Of a stretch of 24,449 bases of DNA, positions 1,881 through 21,286 are shown piece by piece; the first letter of the stretch is position 1, and each line of letters starts with the position of its first letter. This DNA is from a virus, in IMG/VR virus record IMGVR_UViG_3300046167_000330, positions 1 through 24,449 of that record. One strand, given 5' to 3'. The translations under genes and the position numbers were made by a program. The notes beneath the pieces were generated by a model. It was not told the origin of the DNA and searched no databases. It saw nothing but the letters and a program-made list of their open reading frames with translations.

Positions 1881-2054
1881 ATGGCACAGTTTAAAATAGT
1901 TAAGGTTTCAAGGGTTGTATCTATTGCATACGTTGAAGCAGAGTCTTGGGAACTAGCAGAGGATATGGCTCACTATCATGGCGATAGTATGGAATGGAAC
2001 ACGGATAATGAAGACGAGTCTATAGAGGCTATTAGTATTACTGATGAGGAATAA
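1881..2054 (+). CDS. Hypothetical 57-residue acidic phage protein
   Basis: Starts two bases after the previous stop with GGGGG upstream. The product begins 'MAQFKIVKVSRVVSIAYVEA' and continues 'ESWELAEDMA', the beta-strand-then-'(S)WExAxxxA' helix layout that I associate with many small phage proteins of unknown role; the tail is strongly acidic. It is the last gene before the first hairpin-bearing intergenic repeat, so it may end a transcription or processing unit. Confidence 0.6.
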   Translation: MAQFKIVKVSRVVSIAYVEAESWELAEDMAHYHGDSMEWNTDNEDESIEAISITDEE

Positions 2055-2134
2055 TTTTCCGAAACTTTCTTTTTTCCCCAAATCGAGGGGCGGAGAAAGT
2101 CTAATACATATACGAACATTAAAGGAGGGAATAT
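2055..2134 (+). repeat. Hairpin-containing intergenic leader repeat, copy 1
   Basis: The first 28 bases (2055-2082) match 3071-3098 at 27 positions. The element can fold as a stem with ACTTTCT (2064-2070) pairing AGAAAGT (2094-2100), and inside it CCCC (2076-2079) pairing GGGG (2087-2090). It is followed by AGTCTAATACATA and a strong ribosome binding site GGAGGG (2124-2129) before the gene at 2135. There is no T-run after the stem, so it does not look like a simple intrinsic terminator; a processing site or leader element is more likely. Confidence 0.65.
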
Positions 2135-2671
2135 ATGCATACATTTGAAGTTGACACATGGATATTCTTTGATAGGGATTCTTTTAATCTCAAGGGATAT
2201 AAATATAACTTTTATGAAGGGAAGCAAAATCTTTTAGAGATTGACAAAACTGATCTTCCTAAGCTTAAAAAGGAACTTAGTTCCTATCATTATGATTGGG
2301 CAACAGACGGAGGCGATACAGTCATTTTTTCAGAGGATGACTTTGAAGATACATACAACCCATTCAGGGGCTTGACTTGGCATGATTATTATAAAGACCT
2401 AGACATCCCTGAAGATTGGGAAAACATATCTTACAGCAATGATGAATTGCCTAGTTTTCTTTATAAAGATTATCAGATTTGGATTAACTCTCCACTTCTT
2501 AATGAAAGGAAGGAAGCATATCTTGGTATAGGTTTTGACAACCTAGACCATTATAAAGATTGGAGGTTTGCAGTTTGCAACTATGATGCTAACGATTGCG
2601 AAACCAAAGACGAGATTTATTCAAGCTTACATCTAAACGAAGTCATTAATTTTTTAAAGGAGCAATACTAA
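2135..2671 (+). CDS. Hypothetical strongly acidic, aromatic-rich protein
   Basis: A 178-residue protein with no family I recognise. It has about 38 Asp/Glu against about 17 Lys/Arg and many Tyr, Trp and Phe residues. Phage early proteins of this composition are sometimes DNA mimics that block restriction or other DNA-binding host proteins, but nothing here proves that. It has its own leader (hairpin repeat plus GGAGGG site) and its stop overlaps the start of the next gene by one base. No membrane segments. Confidence 0.75.
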   Translation: MHTFEVDTWIFFDRDSFNLKGYKYNFYEGKQNLLEIDKTDLPKLKKELSSYHYDWATDGGDTVIFSEDDFEDTYNPFRGLTWHDYYKDLDIPEDWENISYSNDELPSFLYKDYQIWINSPLLNERKEAYLGIGFDNLDHYKDWRFAVCNYDANDCETKDEIYSSLHLNEVINFLKEQY

Positions 2672-2901
2672 TGAAACATTTTAAGAGGTGGAATTTTAGT
2701 TTATCTATTTACATGTGTGACATCCTTTTTGATTTCTATGAAAGAAATGAATTAGAACATTGTTGTGCTTTAGAAAGCCTTATGGGTGGAAACTTTCACA
2801 ACGAAGAGCAGAAGGAATGGTTGAGGAGGTTCAATGATGTTTGGGAAAGGGTTGAGCAAAGAGATATTAATATTAATTTAAAGGAGAAGAGTAATGTCTA
2901 A
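2671..2901 (+). CDS. Hypothetical 76-residue protein
   Basis: Start codon overlaps the previous stop (TAATG); AAAGGAGCAA is a good ribosome binding site. The product begins MKHFKRWNF, has a hydrophobic stretch with two cysteines in the middle (HCCALESLMGG), and ends in a charged helix with 'EEQKEWLRRFNDVWERVEQ'. No known domain. It overlaps the following small gene by 8 bases. Confidence 0.65.
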   Translation: MKHFKRWNFSLSIYMCDILFDFYERNELEHCCALESLMGGNFHNEEQKEWLRRFNDVWERVEQRDININLKEKSNV

Positions 2902-3046
2902 ATCACAATTAGAAAAGGTTAAGAGCCTAGTGGATGACCTAGGGTGGGATTTTCAGTCTATGACTAGAGGTGGCAGGGACACCTATAAAGAGTTATGTCT
3001 CTTACTAGGTTGGAAGTTTGAATGGGATGAAGATGAACTTGGTTAA
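2894..3046 (+). CDS. Hypothetical 50-residue protein
   Basis: A small gene starting inside the end of the previous one, with AAAGGAGAAGAGT upstream as ribosome binding site. The product MSKSQLEKVKSLVDDLGWDF... has an amphipathic first helix, a central Arg/Gly-rich turn and an acidic Trp-rich end. Unknown function. It is the last gene before the second hairpin repeat. Confidence 0.55.
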   Translation: MSKSQLEKVKSLVDDLGWDFQSMTRGGRDTYKELCLLLGWKFEWDEDELG

Positions 3047-3070
3047 TGCAGTAATACTGACGAGCAATGA

Positions 3071-3147
3071 TTTTGCGAAACTTTCTTTTTTCCCCAAAAA
3101 ACAGGGTTGAAAGGAAGTCTATTACATAACCAATTAAGGAGGGAAAT
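3071..3147 (+). repeat. Hairpin-containing intergenic leader repeat, copy 2
   Basis: Second copy of the element at 2055, almost identical over its first 28 bases. Its 3' arm has diverged, yet pairing is kept: CTTTC (3081-3085) with GAAAG (3109-3113) and CCC with GGG (3104-3106). It ends in AAGTCTATTACATAA and a GGAGGG ribosome binding site (3138-3143) before the gene at 3148. Confidence 0.65.
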
Positions 3148-3378
3148 ATGTATAACGATAGAATAGATAAACTAAATGCTATTACTGATAGCCCAGATCT
3201 TGGGAAATGGGAGCAAAAAAACATTTATAACGCAGAAATAACTTTTACAACACTAGATATAGGAAGAGAGGCAAACTCTAAAGAAGAATGTATTGAAAGT
3301 ATAAAAATGCAATTTTTAGAAGAAAACAATATTGAACTTAGAGATGATGAAATAACTATATTAGAGGAGCAAGACTAA
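3148..3378 (+). CDS. Hypothetical 76-residue acidic protein
   Basis: Starts after the second hairpin leader with an excellent ribosome binding site. The product has a charged N-terminal part and a C-terminal half 'ANSKEECIESIKMQFLEENNIELRDDEITILEEQD' that reads as helix, strand, acidic tail. No known family. The stop overlaps the following start by one base (TAATG). Confidence 0.65.
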   Translation: MYNDRIDKLNAITDSPDLGKWEQKNIYNAEITFTTLDIGREANSKEECIESIKMQFLEENNIELRDDEITILEEQD

Positions 3379-4123: not shown

Positions 4124-5212
4124 ATGAATGTACTAAGTTTGTTTGATGGAATGAGTTGCGGAAGAATTGCACTTGATAGATTGGGAGTAAAAGTAGATAA
4201 CTATTACGCAAGTGAGATAGATAAGTATGCTATTGAAGTAAGTAAGGCTAACTACCCGGAAATTATACAAGTGGGGGACATTACGGAACTTGACCTATCA
4301 ACCTTACCAAAGATTGATTTGATTATGGGTGGTTCTCCATGCCAAGGATTCTCTTTTGCAGGAAAGCAACTAGCCTTTGACGACCCCAGATCCATGTTAT
4401 TTTTTGAGTTTGTTAAATGTGTTGAGACATTAAAACCTAAATATTTCTTACTTGAAAATGTAAGAATGAAAAAAGAATACTTAGATGTTATCTCTGAATA
4501 CATGGGTGTCGAACCTATTTTTATAAATAGTTCGCTTGTCTCTGCACAGTCAAGGCAAAGATATTATTGGACTAACATTCCTAATGTGGAACTTCCAGAA
4601 GAAAGGGGAATTGTCCTAAAAGATATCCTAGAGGGCGATACAGTAGAACACAAACCTGTAAAGAGAACAGAAAGGAACGCAAGGCATCTTAAAAAGTTAG
4701 ATGATAAGTCTTTATGCATGACCGCAACCATGTATAAGGGAGCTGGGAACAATGGAATGACTTTAGTTCCACAACAAATAGGAACTGCTGTTGATGTTAA
4801 TGGTCACGACATTTTAAAAAGGGTTTATAGTCCAGAAGGAAAATCTCCAACAGTAAACACTTGTCAAGGTGGCAATAGGGAACCCAAAGTAGTCTGCGGA
4901 AGATACGTTGGAAGGTATAAGGTGGATGGAGTACGACAAGATCACAAGGGTTCTATTGCAGGAAAGTCTAAACAGATGCTTGAACTAAGAAGGGATGACA
5001 AAACCAACAACATATCTACAGTACAAAAGGATAATGTTTTAGTTAAGGATGATGTTTATTGGAGAAAGCTAACGCCTTTAGAGTGTGAAAGATTACAAAC
5101 CGTTCCTGATAATTACACCAACCATGTATCTAACACCCAAAGATATAAGATGCTAGGAAATGGGTGGACTATAGAGGTTATTACCCACATCCTTAGTAAT
5201 ATGGAAGCCTAA
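4124..5212 (+). CDS. DNA (cytosine-5)-methyltransferase
   Basis: A 362-residue C5-cytosine methyltransferase, transferring a methyl group from S-adenosylmethionine to cytosine in DNA. Motifs are in canonical order: motif I 'LSLFDGMSCGRIAL' (4-17), motif IV 'GGSPCQGFS' with nucleophile Cys73, motif VI 'ENV' (111-113), motif VIII 'QSRQRYYW' (142-149), a variable target-recognition region (about 170-310), and motifs IX/X 'LTPLECERLQ' and 'LGNGWTIEVI' near the C-terminus. It appears complete and active. It ends the early operon; its stop overlaps that of a convergent HNH endonuclease. Protection of phage DNA from restriction is the likely role; the target sequence cannot be read from the protein. 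Confidence 0.97.
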   Translation: MNVLSLFDGMSCGRIALDRLGVKVDNYYASEIDKYAIEVSKANYPEIIQVGDITELDLSTLPKIDLIMGGSPCQGFSFAGKQLAFDDPRSMLFFEFVKCVETLKPKYFLLENVRMKKEYLDVISEYMGVEPIFINSSLVSAQSRQRYYWTNIPNVELPEERGIVLKDILEGDTVEHKPVKRTERNARHLKKLDDKSLCMTATMYKGAGNNGMTLVPQQIGTAVDVNGHDILKRVYSPEGKSPTVNTCQGGNREPKVVCGRYVGRYKVDGVRQDHKGSIAGKSKQMLELRRDDKTNNISTVQKDNVLVKDDVYWRKLTPLECERLQTVPDNYTNHVSNTQRYKMLGNGWTIEVITHILSNMEA

Positions 5213-5715
5213 TTATTTTTTGATATGTTTTTACACCAATCTATGAGTTCTTCTAACTCTAAGGTGTACTTCATCATGTTTACTGCTAGACACACTAAGG
5301 CAATGTTACCCTCCTCGTAACCCTTAGTGTTGTCAATGCGGTCTATTGATATGTTTTCTAAATGATATCCTGTACCATCCTTTATGTGAGTCATGACTAC
5401 TCCAGAATACTGACAAATACCTTTTTGTCGATCATATAGTTTATGTAGATGATCTACTGTAATATTAAATTTATGTGTTTCTTTTCTTCTATATGCTAAT
5501 TGTGAGTATATGCTATTGATGTAAGCATATGGGGATTCACTAATTCTTTTTCTTTTCCGCGATTGACGGCAGGAATGACAAACTCTTGATCTATAGCCCT
5601 TGCTTATTTCAAAGCGGTTTATATTCTTGTTTTCTTTACAAGTTCTACAAGTCCTGGTTTTATGACCAGTCGTATGGGGTTGTGTCTTTAATTTCGATAT
5701 CGAAGCTTTCAACAT
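5209..5715 (-). CDS. HNH endonuclease with N-terminal zinc cluster
   Basis: 168 residues. The N-terminus has 'CRTCKENKNINRF' and 'RSRVCHSCRQSRKRKR', a Cys4 ribbon typical of phage HNH proteins. The C-terminal half carries 'ICQYSGVVM...' and 'ISIDRIDNTKGYEEGNIALVC', which fits the HNH metal-finger core of phage and group-I-intron type enzymes, cutting DNA. No start codon exists downstream of the ATG at 5715, so the gene must overlap the DUF5675 gene by 56 bases, unusual in this compact genome and suggestive of insertion at that gene's end. Either a free-standing homing-type nuclease or a restriction partner of the convergent methyltransferase. Confidence 0.85.
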   Translation of the reverse strand: MLKASISKLKTQPHTTGHKTRTCRTCKENKNINRFEISKGYRSRVCHSCRQSRKRKRISESPYAYINSIYSQLAYRRKETHKFNITVDHLHKLYDRQKGICQYSGVVMTHIKDGTGYHLENISIDRIDNTKGYEEGNIALVCLAVNMMKYTLELEELIDWCKNISKNN

Positions 5716-14727: not shown

Positions 14728-14910
14728 ATGGTAATAGATATAACAATAGAAGACATACAAAATCTGAAAACTCATTGTGAGTCTAAGATTTCAGAAATAT
14801 ATGACAAAGAAGGTTTAACGATCCAACAAAAAGCAGACGAAGCTTCTGTTTACAGACAAAGAATTGAGAATCTTATTGATGTGATACATCAAGCAAAACT
14901 AATTAAATAA
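14728..14910 (+). CDS. Hypothetical 60-residue helical protein
   Basis: A charged, mostly helical protein: 'TIEDIQNLKTHCESKISEIYDKEGLTIQQKADEASVYRQRIENLIDVI'. A GAGGG site precedes the ATG at 14728, and its stop overlaps the integrase start by one base (TAATG), so they are translated together. It could be an integrase partner, but has no recognisable DNA-binding motif. Behind its own promoter. Confidence 0.65.
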   Translation: MVIDITIEDIQNLKTHCESKISEIYDKEGLTIQQKADEASVYRQRIENLIDVIHQAKLIK

Positions 14911-15710
14911 TGAATACATGGAAAGAATCCGTTACTGAATATTATAAGTTTAATAAAATGGGTAAAAATGATTTTACCTATCGTAAATACTTTGACCCAA
15001 GACTAGAGGGCATAGATATAAAAGACATAAAGAAGTCAGATATTGTAGACATTAGATCTGGAATCAAGGGTAAACCTGGCACCGTTAATAGGTATTTAAA
15101 TTATTTTAGAGCAATACTTATGTATGCTTATGAAGAACTAGGATGGTTAGACTCTAAGCCTATAATTAAAAAAGTTAAAGAGGAGTCTGCAAGAGTTAAG
15201 TATTTTAGTTTGGATGATATAAACAGGCTTCGCAACGAACTTCCCAATCATCTACAAAAACCATTTGTTTTTTCTTTGCTTACAGGCGTAAGAATGTCTA
15301 ACTGTTTTAATCTAAAATGGATTGACATCATGGAAAATCAAATAGCCATTGATGGATCTGAAACCAAAAACGGCAGAAGTTTATGCGTACCTTTAAATAA
15401 CAAGTGCAAGGAGCTGCTAGACTCTATAGAGCAAGTTGGTCCCTATGTTTTTACATACGCTGGCAGAAAGATTGGCAGGGCTTCTAATACAGGATGGTAC
15501 AACGCTCTAAAAAAAGCAAACTTAGAGGGTTTTAGATGGCATGATATAAGGCATACTTGGGCTACTCATCATGTGCAAAACGGAACACCTCTTCATACAT
15601 TACAACATCTTGGTGGTTGGTCAGACTTTAATATAGTTAATAGGTATGCACATCTTTCAAAAGATTATCTAAGCGATGCTTGTGAGGTTAGTAATACTTT
15701 GATATCCTAA
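14910..15710 (+). CDS. int: Tyrosine recombinase / phage integrase
   Basis: 266 residues, somewhat short for the family (often 300-400). An N-terminal SAM-like core-binding region (about 1-90, 'GKPGTVNRYLNYFRAILMYAYEELGW') precedes the catalytic domain: Arg128 in 'TGVRMSN', Lys153 in 'ETKNGRSL', 'HDIRHTWAT' (His211, Arg214), 'LGGWSDF' and nucleophile Tyr246 in 'NRYAHLS'. All catalytic residues are present, so an active enzyme is likely. It catalyses attP/attB site-specific recombination and implies lysogeny. No arm-binding N-terminal domain is obvious. It ends 56 bases before the convergent structural module. Confidence 0.95.
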   Translation: MNTWKESVTEYYKFNKMGKNDFTYRKYFDPRLEGIDIKDIKKSDIVDIRSGIKGKPGTVNRYLNYFRAILMYAYEELGWLDSKPIIKKVKEESARVKYFSLDDINRLRNELPNHLQKPFVFSLLTGVRMSNCFNLKWIDIMENQIAIDGSETKNGRSLCVPLNNKCKELLDSIEQVGPYVFTYAGRKIGRASNTGWYNALKKANLEGFRWHDIRHTWATHHVQNGTPLHTLQHLGGWSDFNIVNRYAHLSKDYLSDACEVSNTLIS

Positions 15711-15772
15711 TGTTTACAGCAGGACTAACGGACTTTGTCATATTTCCCCCTACTAGTATGTATCTGTTAGTC
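15711..15772. repeat. Inverted repeat at the integrase / structural-gene junction (possible attP)
   Basis: The convergent gap holds GACTAACGGA (15723-15732) and TCTGTTAGTC (15763-15772), a 9-of-10 inverted repeat around a 30-base centre; the second arm runs into the last codons and stop of the giant virion gene. Between them lie a pyrimidine tract and ACTAGT. The loop is too long for a typical terminator and no T-run follows. Attachment sites often lie next to the integrase, but no tRNA-like sequence or known core was found. Confidence 0.35.
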
Positions 15773-18700
15773 TTGCTTCTCATCTTTTGCCATAGCCTTC
15801 TCATACTGTTTCAGTAAGTCTATGTGAACTCTTCTTTTATCTTCTTTAATTTTGTCTATTTTTAAATAGTAAGAGGATGGATCTTTTTGTCTAAGTTTTA
15901 GTGCTTGCAATGTCTTATCAGCATCTTTAATCTTATCCATTCTACGTCTAATATCAGTTAGTGGTTTTTCTACAATTCCTTTTAGCTCTGATGGTAAAGA
16001 TTTTTTGATCTGCTTATCCATATCACTCAGGTAATTTAACTTAATAACATTTTTGTTTTTTCTGTAAAACTCAGCCTTAGCCTCTGCGTCTTCTATTTTG
16101 TCATATTTATAAGTCTTGCTCTCTATGTCATCCATAGCACTGTAAAATCTTCTTGAGTAAACCCCATCTTGTTCTTGAACCAAGAAGGTATTAACAAAAT
16201 TAATATCTTTTACATCTTGTACCTCAGAGTACATAAACCTTCTTAAACCCTCTACTGTTTTGCTTGCAAAAGACATTGGTCCTCCGCCGTAGTATTCTGT
16301 TATGTATTTTATTTGACCAGGCTGTAGATCAATAAAGCCTTTTTCCAACATCTTATTATTGCCCCCAGTCATTTCATTAGCAAGCTGAGCTAACGATATG
16401 TAAACATCTTTGTCATAACTTGTTACTACAGATGATTCTGGTATACCCTTGGATCCGCCATAAAATTGTTTTGTAATAGGAATATTAAAAAAGTTTTCAT
16501 TAACGGCTATCTCTGTTAAAGGTCTTGCATAAGAAGGCGTTACTGCTCTTATAACCGTAGAGGCAAAGCCCTCCAAGTCTCCCTTCTTAGACACATTTAC
16601 GCCTAATGGCATAACACCAGTGCTAAAAGTATCAAACATATCTAAGGCAGCTTTACCAACAGTCTTTGATTGTCTGTTAAGACCGAATATCTTGTGAGCT
16701 TGAGTCTCTACTGCGTTCCTTGCTAAGTTGAACGGCACGTTAAATCCTAAGGTTTGTGGATAAGCAAAAGCAACAGTCTTGCCATTGACCTTTATTGGTC
16801 CTCCACCAAAAGAAAGTTTGGGAAGTTCATCATCGCTATTAATCTTTGCTCCAGGGATCATGGTAATAACGTATCTGTTACCATATCTTTCTGCTATATT
16901 TTCATAGATGGGTCTTCCAGTCTCGTCCTCTTCAGAAACCAAGAAGTTATATAAAGTAAGCATAGTTCCATAGGTAGCAATGCCCCCTCCGACTTGTAAA
17001 GCTATTTTCTTGTTTTTCGCTAATGCTCTATAAAGAGGAACATTACTTTGAACCGCAGCATTAAAGAAAATAAAATGTGAATTAATAGTATTATTCATTT
17101 GACCTTTCGTGGTGTAGTCTATGGTCAACTGTTTGGCTAAAGAGGCTGCTTGCTCTAAAGTTTCTTTTTTGGCACCTTGTATTTTGCCACCATTTTCTGC
17201 CTTTATAAATTCAACAAAGGTAGAGAATCTTATCCCATTTTCCACTGAACTGTTTAAATCATACATCCAATCAGCAGTTGCTTTGAATGGCTTTTTAATA
17301 CCGCCAGCGATCCTAAGAAGTAATTTATCTTTTCCTTCCAGCGATGCGGTTCCTTCGTATTTCTTTGTTAGCTCTTTATAAAAATCTCCTATTCTTTCTT
17401 GTCCAAGGGTGGTAACAAAACCAGAGTTGGCACCATATTCGTTAAACCTTTCATAAGCTTCTTGGATTCCATCCTCCTCTATCTGCTTTCCTTTTACGCC
17501 TTGATAGAATTGTCTTAGCCTTGGCAAGACATTTTTAACACTACTTTCAAGTATCGCTTTTCCCTCAGCCCTTCCTCCGGGTAAATTTTGTTCTGTGTAT
17601 ATTCCTATACCACCACCAATAAGATCTCGCATAAAGTTTTTTAAGACAAATGGCGGAGAGAATGCTGTATATAATGCTGACTGTAATCTTGTTATAGGTC
17701 GCATAGTTTTTGAGAATGCATCTAAAGAGTCTGCATCATAAGCGTTTAAGGATCTAGCCAGTTTTTCATCATAAACTTTTAACCACTTTTGATTGCCATC
17801 TTGCTTAAAACCAAAAACCATTTCCATTGCTTTTGGCTTTATATCAACCACTTCTGCTATATCACTCCCATCAAACTCTTCTGTGAATAGTTTTCCTATT
17901 CTGTTTAATACATCATTCTTTGTGGCTCTTTCTATAGCCGTCTGTCTTTGATTAACCATTTGAATAAATGGAGATGCTGATATAGATTTTCTTCCTTCTG
18001 CTTTTATAAATTCACCGTCTCTAATAGAAAGACCTTTGCCTTTTCTGTTTGGCTTGTTATCTATTGTTGTATCGGCAGCCCATCCTGTTAATGGTACATA
18101 ATACTTATAATTTTCTCCAGATTTAAAATCCTCTGTTATAGAGTCGTCTATCAAACCACCCTCATTATAAAGATCTACTGTTTCTTTGATGTACTGATGA
18201 TATTCATTTGTCAGATCTAATAATGCTTTACCGTCTTCGTTAAGTGCCGTTGCATCTGTTCCATTGTGCTCTATTCCATAATCTTTTAAAACATCTATTG
18301 CCTCTTCTGTTCTTATTCCAGAGCCATTGTCTTCAAACCTTGCTGCATCTTTCTTTGCTTTTTCTATCTGAGCTACTTGATTTTTAGTAGGAGTTTCCCC
18401 TGCTTCTTTTATTAATTCATCAATGTTATTTAACTTATCTTTATAAACTTTTCTATTTCTTTCTGGTGCATGTAATGCCCTGGCAACAATATCAACATCA
18501 TTTGCTTTGACATTCTTTTCTTGCATTTTTTCAACAATAGTTTCTGCAGCCTCTAAAGACTTTTGTTGCTTGTTAGCTCTTATCCCCGGTAGCCTTACAA
18601 AAGCTTCAGATGGTTTTTCAGATATAGTAAGTTTTGGTAAGCCTTTTTCTTCTGCTCTTTGATCCCTAGCCTTTTCTACATCTTTGACATAACCAACTGT

Positions 18701-21286
18701 ATTTTGAAATTTAAATTCTAGCTCTTGTTTTTTCTGTTCCAACAAAGAAACCTCGCCAACGCCCCATGGGTCAACCTCTCTTTCTTTTGGTGCGTCTGTG
18801 ATGTTAGAACCGTTATCTAAATCACTTTTACTACCAGATCTTGCTGGCTTTAATGGAGTATTTTTTGGCGTGTACTCTTCAAACTCTGGATAAACAGGAA
18901 TCTTGTCTTGTTCATTAAAGTAATCATCGGCTGGGAAGCTTGGTATGTTTTCAAAATCTTCTAAGGTTACAGGTTGCGATGAGTCTGGAACCACCTGTTC
19001 TGTAAAATCTATTTCTGCTGGGTCTGTTTTTACTTGCTCTTCCTGACCTTTTATTTTATAAGTATAATCTCCACTAAGAGTAGATTTTTCTATTCCGTCT
19101 GCATCTTCTAGTCTAATAAGTGCGTCTTCTATATTTATTTTACTTGTTCTACCTGCAGCTTTGGCTATATCAGAGACAGAAGATCCTGGGTTTTTTCTAA
19201 TAAAGTTATATATAGTGCCTTCCATTTCAGACTCATAAGCATTTAGCTCTTCTTGAGACTTCGGTGTTAAAGGGTTTTCTTCTAAAAGATCTGCAATTTC
19301 ATTTACACTAAGCCTAGATGTTTCTCCACTAGTTTCTATTGTTCCGCCTTCTCCCCTTCCCCTGAAGAACCCCTCTTCTAAAAGAGCTGCACCACCCATA
19401 TCAAGGCTGTCCTCACCTCCACCTTTTTTAGCTCTATATACAGGAGAAACCTTATCCCCACCACCTGATAAAGCTCTTACTATTTCTTCTTGCTTCAGTG
19501 CGTTATTACTCATAGAGCCAAGATAAAAGCTTCTTGCTGTTATAGGTTTTGGTTTTTTTGGTAAAACTATTTTTTCTTTTGGAGTTGGCTTAACCTTTAT
19601 TTTAAATTTCTTTTCTGCATTTTGCTTAATGATAAATTCATCTATCTTGTTTGCTGTCTCTTTTACATTATTAAAATCTACGCGGAAACCTATTGAATCT
19701 AAAAGTCTTATTTGGTTTGGCGGTTCGTTTCTTAACCCGGCAGCATAATCAGTACCAGTGGTAAGGTTCATTTTGTCTATATCATAACCTTTTGCTTTTA
19801 AGAACTTCTCTACATTTACAAGCCCATCATCTATATTAGATACATCATTTAATGGATCTCCAGCAGATTCGGTGATCGGGTCAGATGTAACCTCAGACTT
19901 CTTTCCTGGAAGCTTTATCTTTAAAATTTCTTCAGCCAATATTTCCATTGGATCAGTATTAGCATCATTCAAGTTGTCTTCTTCTAATGCCCTTATAGAT
20001 GCCTGCTCAAGTGCTACTTTGTCCAGCTCTTTTGAGAGTATGACGTTTTTTATAGACTCTTGTGTTTCTTGAGGTTTGGGACTGTTCTTTACCCAATCCT
20101 TTGATGCGTTATATTTTATAGCCCCATTTGCAGTCACCATCCCGCCACCAGCTGCCAAACTTGCTATAGATGTTAACCTAGCCCTCTCCCATAATATATC
20201 TTTATAATCTGTTCCCTCGTATAAAGGATTGTCTTTGTTATCCCAAGCAATCTTTAGCTCATCTGTATTATCGTAATATGCCTGAGTAATAGATTGTGCT
20301 AATCCATTAAATTGTTCACCGACTGATTCTGCGGCAAGTATTCCTCCACCCTCTAATACCAAACTTTTTATATTTTGTTTTTGTTTTTTTAACAATTTGT
20401 TTAAGCTTTTTACAACAGTAAATTGAGTTAACATTTCTGAAGCAATCTCTGTTCCGCCCTGAATATAAGAGTTGTATCTAGCATCTTTATCTGACATGCC
20501 TGATGCTATTGAGCTCTCATAAGTTTCTTGTTGTGTTACAAGACCAAAATAAGGCAGTGTTGCATACGCAACTTTTGGGTTTCTAGTAAATACAGCTGCC
20601 CCCATGCTAGTTAGTGAAACAGCCATAGAAGAAACACCACCAACTAATGCTATCTCTTCTTCGGTATATCCTCTCTTATCCCAAAGTTTTTGTTTCTTTA
20701 GGTTATATGCATCATTAATTTTTTTTGTTTCAGCAACATGTTCTTTAGACTCTTGTTTTAAATCGTTTAAACTTTTAGACCTTTCATCTAAAGACATCTC
20801 TTTGTATTTAACTTTTTTCTTTAGGATGGATGTTGCACTTTCTCCAAAGACTGTTTCCCAAAGTATACCTAAGTTTCCTTTATCAGATAATCCCAATTCA
20901 TTTTCAAGAGTTTGTTTTTCATATCTATACTTTAGACCACCGCCTCTTAGCAAAAGATTGTCCAGTAATGATCTATCACTTTGATCTATAGAGTCATTTA
21001 TATCATCTGTTATATCTTGTATAGCTGCATTTTTTACTGATCTGGTTAGTCTTCCAGGTAGGTTAGCACCCTGCTCACCTGCCATTACCACCGCATCAAA
21101 TAACTTTGTTCCTGTTGGTTTAAATGCACCAATGTAAGAGCCTTCTTGTTCTTCTAATAGAGGAACATTGAATTTTTCTTTTTTGGGTTCTTCTAAATCT
21201 GCTGTTTGATTTAATAAAGGTACTGAAAAAGATTCTTTTTTTTCTTCTTCTTCCCCTAATAACGGTACGCTAAATTCGTTAGCCAT
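15767..21286 (-). CDS. Giant internal virion / ejection protein (large polyvalent protein-like)
   Basis: 1839 residues. Starts with three copies of F-(S/N)-V-P-L-L (residues 5-10, 20-25, 39-44) spaced by acidic/Lys linkers. Hydrophobic segments lie near 213-240, 365-385 and 1425-1450. Around 675-745 is a winged-helix-like region ('IYNFIRKNPGSSVSDIAKAAGRTS...ALIRLEDADGIEKS'). Near 935 is 'VARALHAPERN', and about 1190-1220 'RPITRLQSALYTAFSPPFVLKNFMRDLIGG'; both are patterns of large polyvalent phage proteins that travel in the capsid. The C-terminus is long helix. A lytic transglycosylase was not seen. It probably enters the host with DNA, like T7 gp16. Confidence 0.8.
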   Translation of the reverse strand: MANEFSVPLLGEEEEKKESFSVPLLNQTADLEEPKKEKFNVPLLEEQEGSYIGAFKPTGTKLFDAVVMAGEQGANLPGRLTRSVKNAAIQDITDDINDSIDQSDRSLLDNLLLRGGGLKYRYEKQTLENELGLSDKGNLGILWETVFGESATSILKKKVKYKEMSLDERSKSLNDLKQESKEHVAETKKINDAYNLKKQKLWDKRGYTEEEIALVGGVSSMAVSLTSMGAAVFTRNPKVAYATLPYFGLVTQQETYESSIASGMSDKDARYNSYIQGGTEIASEMLTQFTVVKSLNKLLKKQKQNIKSLVLEGGGILAAESVGEQFNGLAQSITQAYYDNTDELKIAWDNKDNPLYEGTDYKDILWERARLTSIASLAAGGGMVTANGAIKYNASKDWVKNSPKPQETQESIKNVILSKELDKVALEQASIRALEEDNLNDANTDPMEILAEEILKIKLPGKKSEVTSDPITESAGDPLNDVSNIDDGLVNVEKFLKAKGYDIDKMNLTTGTDYAAGLRNEPPNQIRLLDSIGFRVDFNNVKETANKIDEFIIKQNAEKKFKIKVKPTPKEKIVLPKKPKPITARSFYLGSMSNNALKQEEIVRALSGGGDKVSPVYRAKKGGGEDSLDMGGAALLEEGFFRGRGEGGTIETSGETSRLSVNEIADLLEENPLTPKSQEELNAYESEMEGTIYNFIRKNPGSSVSDIAKAAGRTSKINIEDALIRLEDADGIEKSTLSGDYTYKIKGQEEQVKTDPAEIDFTEQVVPDSSQPVTLEDFENIPSFPADDYFNEQDKIPVYPEFEEYTPKNTPLKPARSGSKSDLDNGSNITDAPKEREVDPWGVGEVSLLEQKKQELEFKFQNTVGYVKDVEKARDQRAEEKGLPKLTISEKPSEAFVRLPGIRANKQQKSLEAAETIVEKMQEKNVKANDVDIVARALHAPERNRKVYKDKLNNIDELIKEAGETPTKNQVAQIEKAKKDAARFEDNGSGIRTEEAIDVLKDYGIEHNGTDATALNEDGKALLDLTNEYHQYIKETVDLYNEGGLIDDSITEDFKSGENYKYYVPLTGWAADTTIDNKPNRKGKGLSIRDGEFIKAEGRKSISASPFIQMVNQRQTAIERATKNDVLNRIGKLFTEEFDGSDIAEVVDIKPKAMEMVFGFKQDGNQKWLKVYDEKLARSLNAYDADSLDAFSKTMRPITRLQSALYTAFSPPFVLKNFMRDLIGGGIGIYTEQNLPGGRAEGKAILESSVKNVLPRLRQFYQGVKGKQIEEDGIQEAYERFNEYGANSGFVTTLGQERIGDFYKELTKKYEGTASLEGKDKLLLRIAGGIKKPFKATADWMYDLNSSVENGIRFSTFVEFIKAENGGKIQGAKKETLEQAASLAKQLTIDYTTKGQMNNTINSHFIFFNAAVQSNVPLYRALAKNKKIALQVGGGIATYGTMLTLYNFLVSEEDETGRPIYENIAERYGNRYVITMIPGAKINSDDELPKLSFGGGPIKVNGKTVAFAYPQTLGFNVPFNLARNAVETQAHKIFGLNRQSKTVGKAALDMFDTFSTGVMPLGVNVSKKGDLEGFASTVIRAVTPSYARPLTEIAVNENFFNIPITKQFYGGSKGIPESSVVTSYDKDVYISLAQLANEMTGGNNKMLEKGFIDLQPGQIKYITEYYGGGPMSFASKTVEGLRRFMYSEVQDVKDINFVNTFLVQEQDGVYSRRFYSAMDDIESKTYKYDKIEDAEAKAEFYRKNKNVIKLNYLSDMDKQIKKSLPSELKGIVEKPLTDIRRRMDKIKDADKTLQALKLRQKDPSSYYLKIDKIKEDKRRVHIDLLKQYEKAMAKDEKQD

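Follow-up and report, generated by a model that had tools for sequence, protein, structure and literature searches.

Tandem hammerheads in phages and the present locus

Tandem hammerhead ribozymes in phage DNA were described in 2011; in prophages they flank single genes or short blocks of genes, and a role in processing long transcripts was proposed and partly tested (Perreault et al. 2011, PMC3088659). The sets from Clostridium scindens, Azorhizobium, and Agrobacterium cleave in vitro, and the Agrobacterium set also does so in E. coli (PMC3088659). Later reviews restate the phage examples (PMC6155905, PMC7761336), and one of them treats the role of hammerheads in phages and bacteria as unsettled (PMC6155905). 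Here we describe two elements, at positions 2033 to 2110 and 3049 to 3128, in IMG/VR virus record IMGVR_UViG_3300046167_000330, of which we analyzed positions 1 to 24,449 (the window, a stretch of 24,449 nucleotides [nt]). Judging from sequence features, we put at about 0.9 the probability that both are type I hammerhead ribozymes in a polycistronic phage messenger RNA (mRNA) of small genes. The pair is a new family of the known tandem arrangement.

Like the prophage clusters, the window pair consists of tandem hammerheads that divide phage genes. It differs from them in belonging to an uncultured phage without a near relative among named phages (a megablast search of the window against named phages gave no match) and in having a long A/U-rich stem III. 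Furthermore, the 5' half of the first copy overlaps the end of the upstream coding sequence, an overlap not mentioned in the main text of the earlier report (PMC3088659). The hammerhead of haloviruses HF1 and HF2 likewise precedes a start codon by a short distance (13 nt there) and lies among early viral genes, but it is a single copy before a helicase gene, has another core variant, and belongs to an archaeal virus (PMC3088659). The core and stems of RAGATH-1 (RF03152) align with the window copies, whereas its conserved upstream hairpin is not convincingly present in the window family. Cluster K mycobacteriophages carry start-associated sequences, in which a repeated hairpin and a ribosome-binding site precede small phage genes; to our knowledge, these sequences and their inverted repeats have not been described as ribozymes. 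A pattern scan of bacterial genomes yielded 40 matches, all of which were judged on inspection to be due to chance.

Architecture of the two elements

A sequence-only reading of this locus had described a duplicated intergenic hairpin. The 5' arms of that hairpin (2055-2082 and 3071-3098) are indeed identical at 27 of 28 positions, the 3' arms have diverged between the copies with pairing retained in both, and both elements lead on to TACATA and GGAGGG. The repeat continues in the 5' direction, with 90% identity between 2034-2082 and 3050-3098, and GAAACTTTCTTTTTTCCCCAAA is confined to these two positions (shuffles expect 0). The hairpin is only half of each element; the 5' boundaries drawn for it were wrong, and 20 more bases upstream belong to the structure. 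With those boundaries, folding energy showed no gain over shuffles (z of -0.99 for copy 1 and -0.52 for copy 2), an outcome that the sequence-only reading had named as counting against its hairpin; with the corrected boundaries, z relative to shuffles is -2.26 for 2033-2110 and -2.79 for 3049-3128.

Read 5' to 3', each element contains an open stem I, CUGANGA, a stem II of 4 base pairs (bp), GAA, stem III (the hairpin described above), and GUC. Stems I, II, and III comprise 6, 4, and 9 bp in copy 1 and 6, 4, and 10 bp in copy 2. Because stem I is the open end, the elements are assigned to type I, and the predicted cuts therefore fall between 2101 and 2102 and between 3119 and 3120. We infer cleavage at both sites from hammerhead chemistry. 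The features are as follows; aa denotes amino acids, and the descriptor and model R2 are described below.

2035-2107, plus strand: hammerhead copy 1, type I, from stem I to stem I (R2 model, descriptor)
2035-2040, plus strand: copy 1 stem I, 5' strand GTATTA, which pairs with 2102-2107; both-sided changes in relatives at 2 of 6 pairs
2041-2047, plus strand: copy 1 core C3 to A9, CTGATGA, with N7 alone variable
2048-2060, plus strand: copy 1 stem-loop II, GGAA-TAATT-TTCC, with G-C to C-G compensation relative to copy 2
2048-2051 with 2057-2060, plus strand: copy 1 stem II strands, GGAA and TTCC
2061-2063, plus strand: copy 1 core G12, A13, and A14 (GAA), invariant
2064-2100, plus strand: copy 1 stem-loop III, A15.1 to U16.1, with 9 consecutive pairs plus CCCC/GGGG, and covariation
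2101, plus strand: copy 1 C17, with the predicted cut at 2101/2102; GUC is invariant in the family
2102-2107, plus strand: copy 1 stem I, 3' strand TAATAC, which would open the downstream message after the cut
2124-2129, plus strand: ribosome-binding site GGAGGG, from sequence, 22 nt past the predicted cut
2135-2671, plus strand: gene downstream of copy 1, for a 178-aa protein without a Pfam, PHROG, or PADLOC family match
3051-3125, plus strand: hammerhead copy 2, type I, from stem I to stem I (R2 model, descriptor)
3051-3056, plus strand: copy 2 stem I, 5' strand GTAATA, which pairs with 3120-3125; T-A to A-T compensation relative to copy 1
3057-3063, plus strand: copy 2 core CTGACGA, in which N7 is the only difference from copy 1
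3064-3076, plus strand: copy 2 stem-loop II, GCAA-TGATT-TTGC, with the compensated G-C to C-G change
3064-3067 with 3073-3076, plus strand: copy 2 stem II strands, GCAA and TTGC
3077-3079, plus strand: copy 2 core GAA, invariant
3080-3118, plus strand: copy 2 stem-loop III, with 10 consecutive pairs
3119, plus strand: copy 2 C17, with the predicted cut at 3119/3120, as in copy 1
3120-3125, plus strand: copy 2 stem I, 3' strand TATTAC, from covariation and fold
3138-3143, plus strand: ribosome-binding site GGAGGG, from sequence, 18 nt past the predicted cut
3148-3378, plus strand: gene downstream of copy 2, for a 76-aa protein of unknown family

The minimum-energy folds of 2033-2110 and 3049-3128 are exactly the hammerhead junction, and the hammerhead core consensus is matched at every position in both copies. 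The sole mismatch in the 28 shared bases (C at 2059, G at 3075) falls on the 3' strand of stem II, and the base opposite, which lies outside the interval of the hairpin as first described, has changed to match (G at 2049, C at 3065). Separately, we observed that the bases before the core can form a competing hairpin in each copy (UAUUAGU/ACUGAUG within 2029-2047 in copy 1 and CAGU/ACUG within 3049-3061 in copy 2), which would hide the core.

Conservation and covariation in related contigs

Relatives were collected by exact DNA patterns without any pairing requirement, and homologues with paired arms proved to be present in related phage contigs. The resulting family alignment contains 12 distinct copies from the window and these contigs. 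Within CUGANGA, N7 is the only variable position (T, C, or G), while GAA, the A15.1-U16.1 pair, and GUC are invariant; H17, which in a type I hammerhead may be any base except G, is C in both window copies and in all 12 family rows. On the hammerhead structure, 98% of the cells pair, and five pairs, distributed over all three stems, have both-sided changes. Cells with such changes number 21 versus 7.0 in shuffles, and the covariation score is 0.321, compared with 0.144 in shuffles (0 of 500) and no more than 0.146 with the partner slid; kinship among the sequences inflates these numbers, but it would be difficult to account otherwise for changes on both sides of five pairs. RNAalifold, run unguided, returns the same three-way junction. 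At two loci, L097 and L100, the 3' strand of stem III is wholly different (GAAAAGAATTGGT), yet pairing persists apart from two U-U mismatches.

The compensated changes in three stems bear out the earlier proposal of a functional RNA structure whose pairing is maintained by compensation. The lone hairpin did not hold: the pairing forms a three-way junction around a hammerhead catalytic core. Given that junction and core, the predicted processing is self-cleavage and not nuclease cutting or attenuation; a processing site was one of the three roles suggested earlier.

Conservation also bears on whether these are formerly active hammerheads that now serve only as recombination boundaries between gene modules. 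The element is retained although its flanking genes vary from copy to copy and from genome to genome, and the common sequence of the copies could recombine; however, the core is intact in 12 of 12 copies and pairing has been restored, which decay would not give, and we regard this explanation as improbable. We give still less weight to a simple hairpin that is cleaved by a host nuclease (for example, RNase III) or protects an mRNA end and whose likeness to a hammerhead is incidental. Stem III, which has the greatest stability of all the parts, is present in every fold, but the conservation of CUGANGA, GAA, and GUC and the compensated stems I and II outside the hairpin would be left unexplained, and about 13 bp of double strand is short for RNase III. 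A translational attenuator, in which the conserved U/C-rich strand would switch to pairing with GGAGGG and so mask the ribosome-binding site, is hardly credible: a subsequence of copy 1 within the first-drawn boundaries does fold UUUUCC onto GGAGGG, but this pairing is absent from copy 2 and from longer folds, and UUUUCC forms the 3' strand of stem II, the conservation of which the hammerhead accounts for.

Recovery by descriptors and by a model trained on other phages

A generic type I descriptor matched exactly these two sites in the window, compared with 3 matches in 300 shuffled windows. Over 2.9 Mb of loci, the same descriptor returned plausible sites only, with 0 in the reversed control. 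Scanning for ACTGATGAGG(7-13)CCGAAAC gave a broad set of at least 119 stretches; among the matches listed, 102 of 118 loci contain a complete type I hammerhead, at least 158 sites in all, and the reversed control gave 0. Type I hammerheads abound in viral contigs, with up to 6 in a single locus (L262) among these matches.

Model R2 was trained on 92 distinct phage hammerheads from the broad set, none from the window's family; its training rows were selected for pairing, and their pairing is therefore 100% by construction. R2 detected copy 1 with 53.5 bits (E = 1.4e-13) and copy 2 with 44.9 bits (E = 4.8e-11), and the next-best match had an E value of 0.34. The eight other family copies in the searched loci were also recovered, as were both sites in L094, an unrelated viral contig of 68.8 kb. 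As a positive control, R2 located a single PaP3 phage site, which lies between orf66 and orf67 (E = 2.3e-5); PaP3 carries a hammerhead reported to be active (PMC3088659), which may be the same element. No site was found by R2 in Bcep176, whose published hammerhead is a core variant.

Several observations weigh against assigning the elements to the hammerheads. No Rfam family reaches its curated cut-off in the window. In a permissive search of 4227 Rfam families, the best match was RAGATH-1-hammerhead, with the core aligned and 25.7 bits versus a cut-off of 56.3; the RF03152 score in the relative L091 was 31.5 bits, also under 56.3. RF00163 (Hammerhead_1; gathering cut-off, 34) has no match in the window, and one phage hammerhead from the broad set scores 19.9 bits on it, again under the cut-off. 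Because the Rfam cut-offs also yield nothing in ten loci with several dozen descriptor-positive hammerheads, the missed cut-off tells more of the library than of the element. The 12 relatives represent few independent events. When folded in 170 nt of context, the stem I strands repartner in both copies (-30.7 versus -25.8 kcal/mol for copy 1 and -28.7 versus -24.7 kcal/mol for copy 2), in programs that ignore tertiary contacts and folding during transcription. Finally, no covarying contact between stem I and loop II could be assigned by inspection of the family alignment. Natural hammerheads need this tertiary contact for fast cleavage.

Stop and start codons at the predicted ribozymes

The two copies split three gene blocks (803-2054, 2135-3046, and 3148 onward). 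Loop II of copy 1 holds the TAA stop (2052-2054) of gene 1881-2054, at an offset of +11 from C3, and copy 2 follows gene 2894-3046. From predicted cut to next ATG, the distance is 33 nt for copy 1 and 28 nt for copy 2. A stop in loop II at +11 is also found at the first L009 site, L011, L012, L091, L092, and both L094 sites; with the stop exactly in loop II, the ribozyme core encodes [S/T]-D-E-x as the C terminus of the protein. Copy 2, the second L009 site, L089, L097, and L144 have the stop at -11 or -13. The genes themselves change: the 178-aa gene is retained behind the element in most relatives, other downstream genes encode 76 aa (copy 2), 60 aa (L009), 124 aa (L091), and 165 aa (L097), and upstream genes also differ between copies of the element.

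We surveyed this layout in at least 154 distinct phage hammerheads among the matches listed. In that sample, the upstream stop is positioned -17 to +15 nt from the core in 140 of the 143 with a called upstream gene, and in 72 of those it lies inside the ribozyme (-5 to +15), as in copy 1; the downstream ATG is 15-34 nt past the cut in 109 of 134. Such tight packing of stop and core is less familiar than the tandem arrangement, although compact genomes would favor it anyway. We found no report in the open-access literature of stop codons inside phage hammerheads.

A promoter and terminator scan gave no terminator-like or promoter-like match on the coding strand at either element, and no intrinsic terminator (a GC stem followed by a T run) was found at the elements. 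By eye, a sigma-70-like promoter (TTGACA-17 nt-TTTAAT) precedes 803; it is not in the list from the promoter scan. A T7-like promoter (TAATAC) was rejected; its spacing is wrong, and TAATAC covaries with its stem I partner.

Neighboring genes and other loci

The 178-aa protein (2135-2671) is acidic (38 D+E, 17 K+R). A search for it in named phages gave no match, and its structure model is poor (pLDDT of 57). ArdA is located behind hammerheads in other phages (PMC3088659), and an anti-restriction (ArdA-like) role for the 178-aa protein would be only a guess. A C5 cytosine DNA methyltransferase gene (Pfam PF00145; 4124-5212) adjoins the small-gene operon, and a convergent gene of unknown family (5209-5715) looks HNH-like by eye. 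The 1839-aa protein encoded at 15767-21286 has C-terminal matches to the very large PHROG families phrog_14770 and phrog_616 and is probably virion associated. A tyrosine integrase gene (14910-15710) suggests a temperate phage.

The two hammerheads of L094 are in tandem on the minus strand (positions 377 and 1869, numbered on the reverse complement), with the predicted cut after GUA. At one of them an ATG lies 1 nt past the predicted cut, and the product could be a leaderless mRNA. Near-leaderless cases also occur in the broad set, some with a second ATG and a ribosome-binding site further downstream.

Proposed mechanism and implications

In the mechanism that we propose, about 75 nt of each boundary would be transcribed, stems I, II, and III would meet at CUGANGA, GAA, and UH, and the RNA would cut itself after GUC. 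Because no promoter or terminator was found on the coding strand at the elements, one transcript would be cut twice, after gene 1881-2054 and after gene 2894-3046. The upstream messages would then carry a terminal 2',3'-cyclic phosphate preceded by two hairpins, and the downstream messages would start with a 5'-hydroxyl at UAAUACAUA... and UAUUACAUA..., with GGAGGG 22 and 18 nt in and the AUG reached after leaders of 33 and 28 nt. Decay by RNase E that depends on sensing the 5' end is inefficient on RNAs with a 5'-hydroxyl, and 3' exonucleases are hindered by a hairpin that bears a cyclic phosphate. Each cut should therefore stabilize both sides and uncouple the blocks, and the two cuts would yield separately stabilized, separately translated pieces of the operon. 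The analysis shows the sequence, the fold, the conserved core, the covariation, and the family membership by model; the cuts, this cut-end chemistry, and these effects on stability and expression are what we infer.

Because the upstream gene stops within the ribozyme (in loop II, in the UGA of the core, or in stem I) or a few bases ahead of it, we also considered whether phage hammerheads might be translation gated, with cleavage restricted to times when translation upstream has paused or ended. While completing the upstream gene, a ribosome would occupy the core and the stem I strand and so block folding. We think this idea unlikely; if true, gated phage hammerheads would sense translation instead of cutting constitutively.

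Many phage hammerheads fall below the curated Rfam cut-offs, and annotation pipelines relying on those thresholds are blind to them. The window provides a compact pair in one operon, and about 150 others among the matches listed share its layout of a stop at the core, a cut, and a start usually 15-34 nt on. This layout predicts where mRNAs end and start and whether translation controls the cut.
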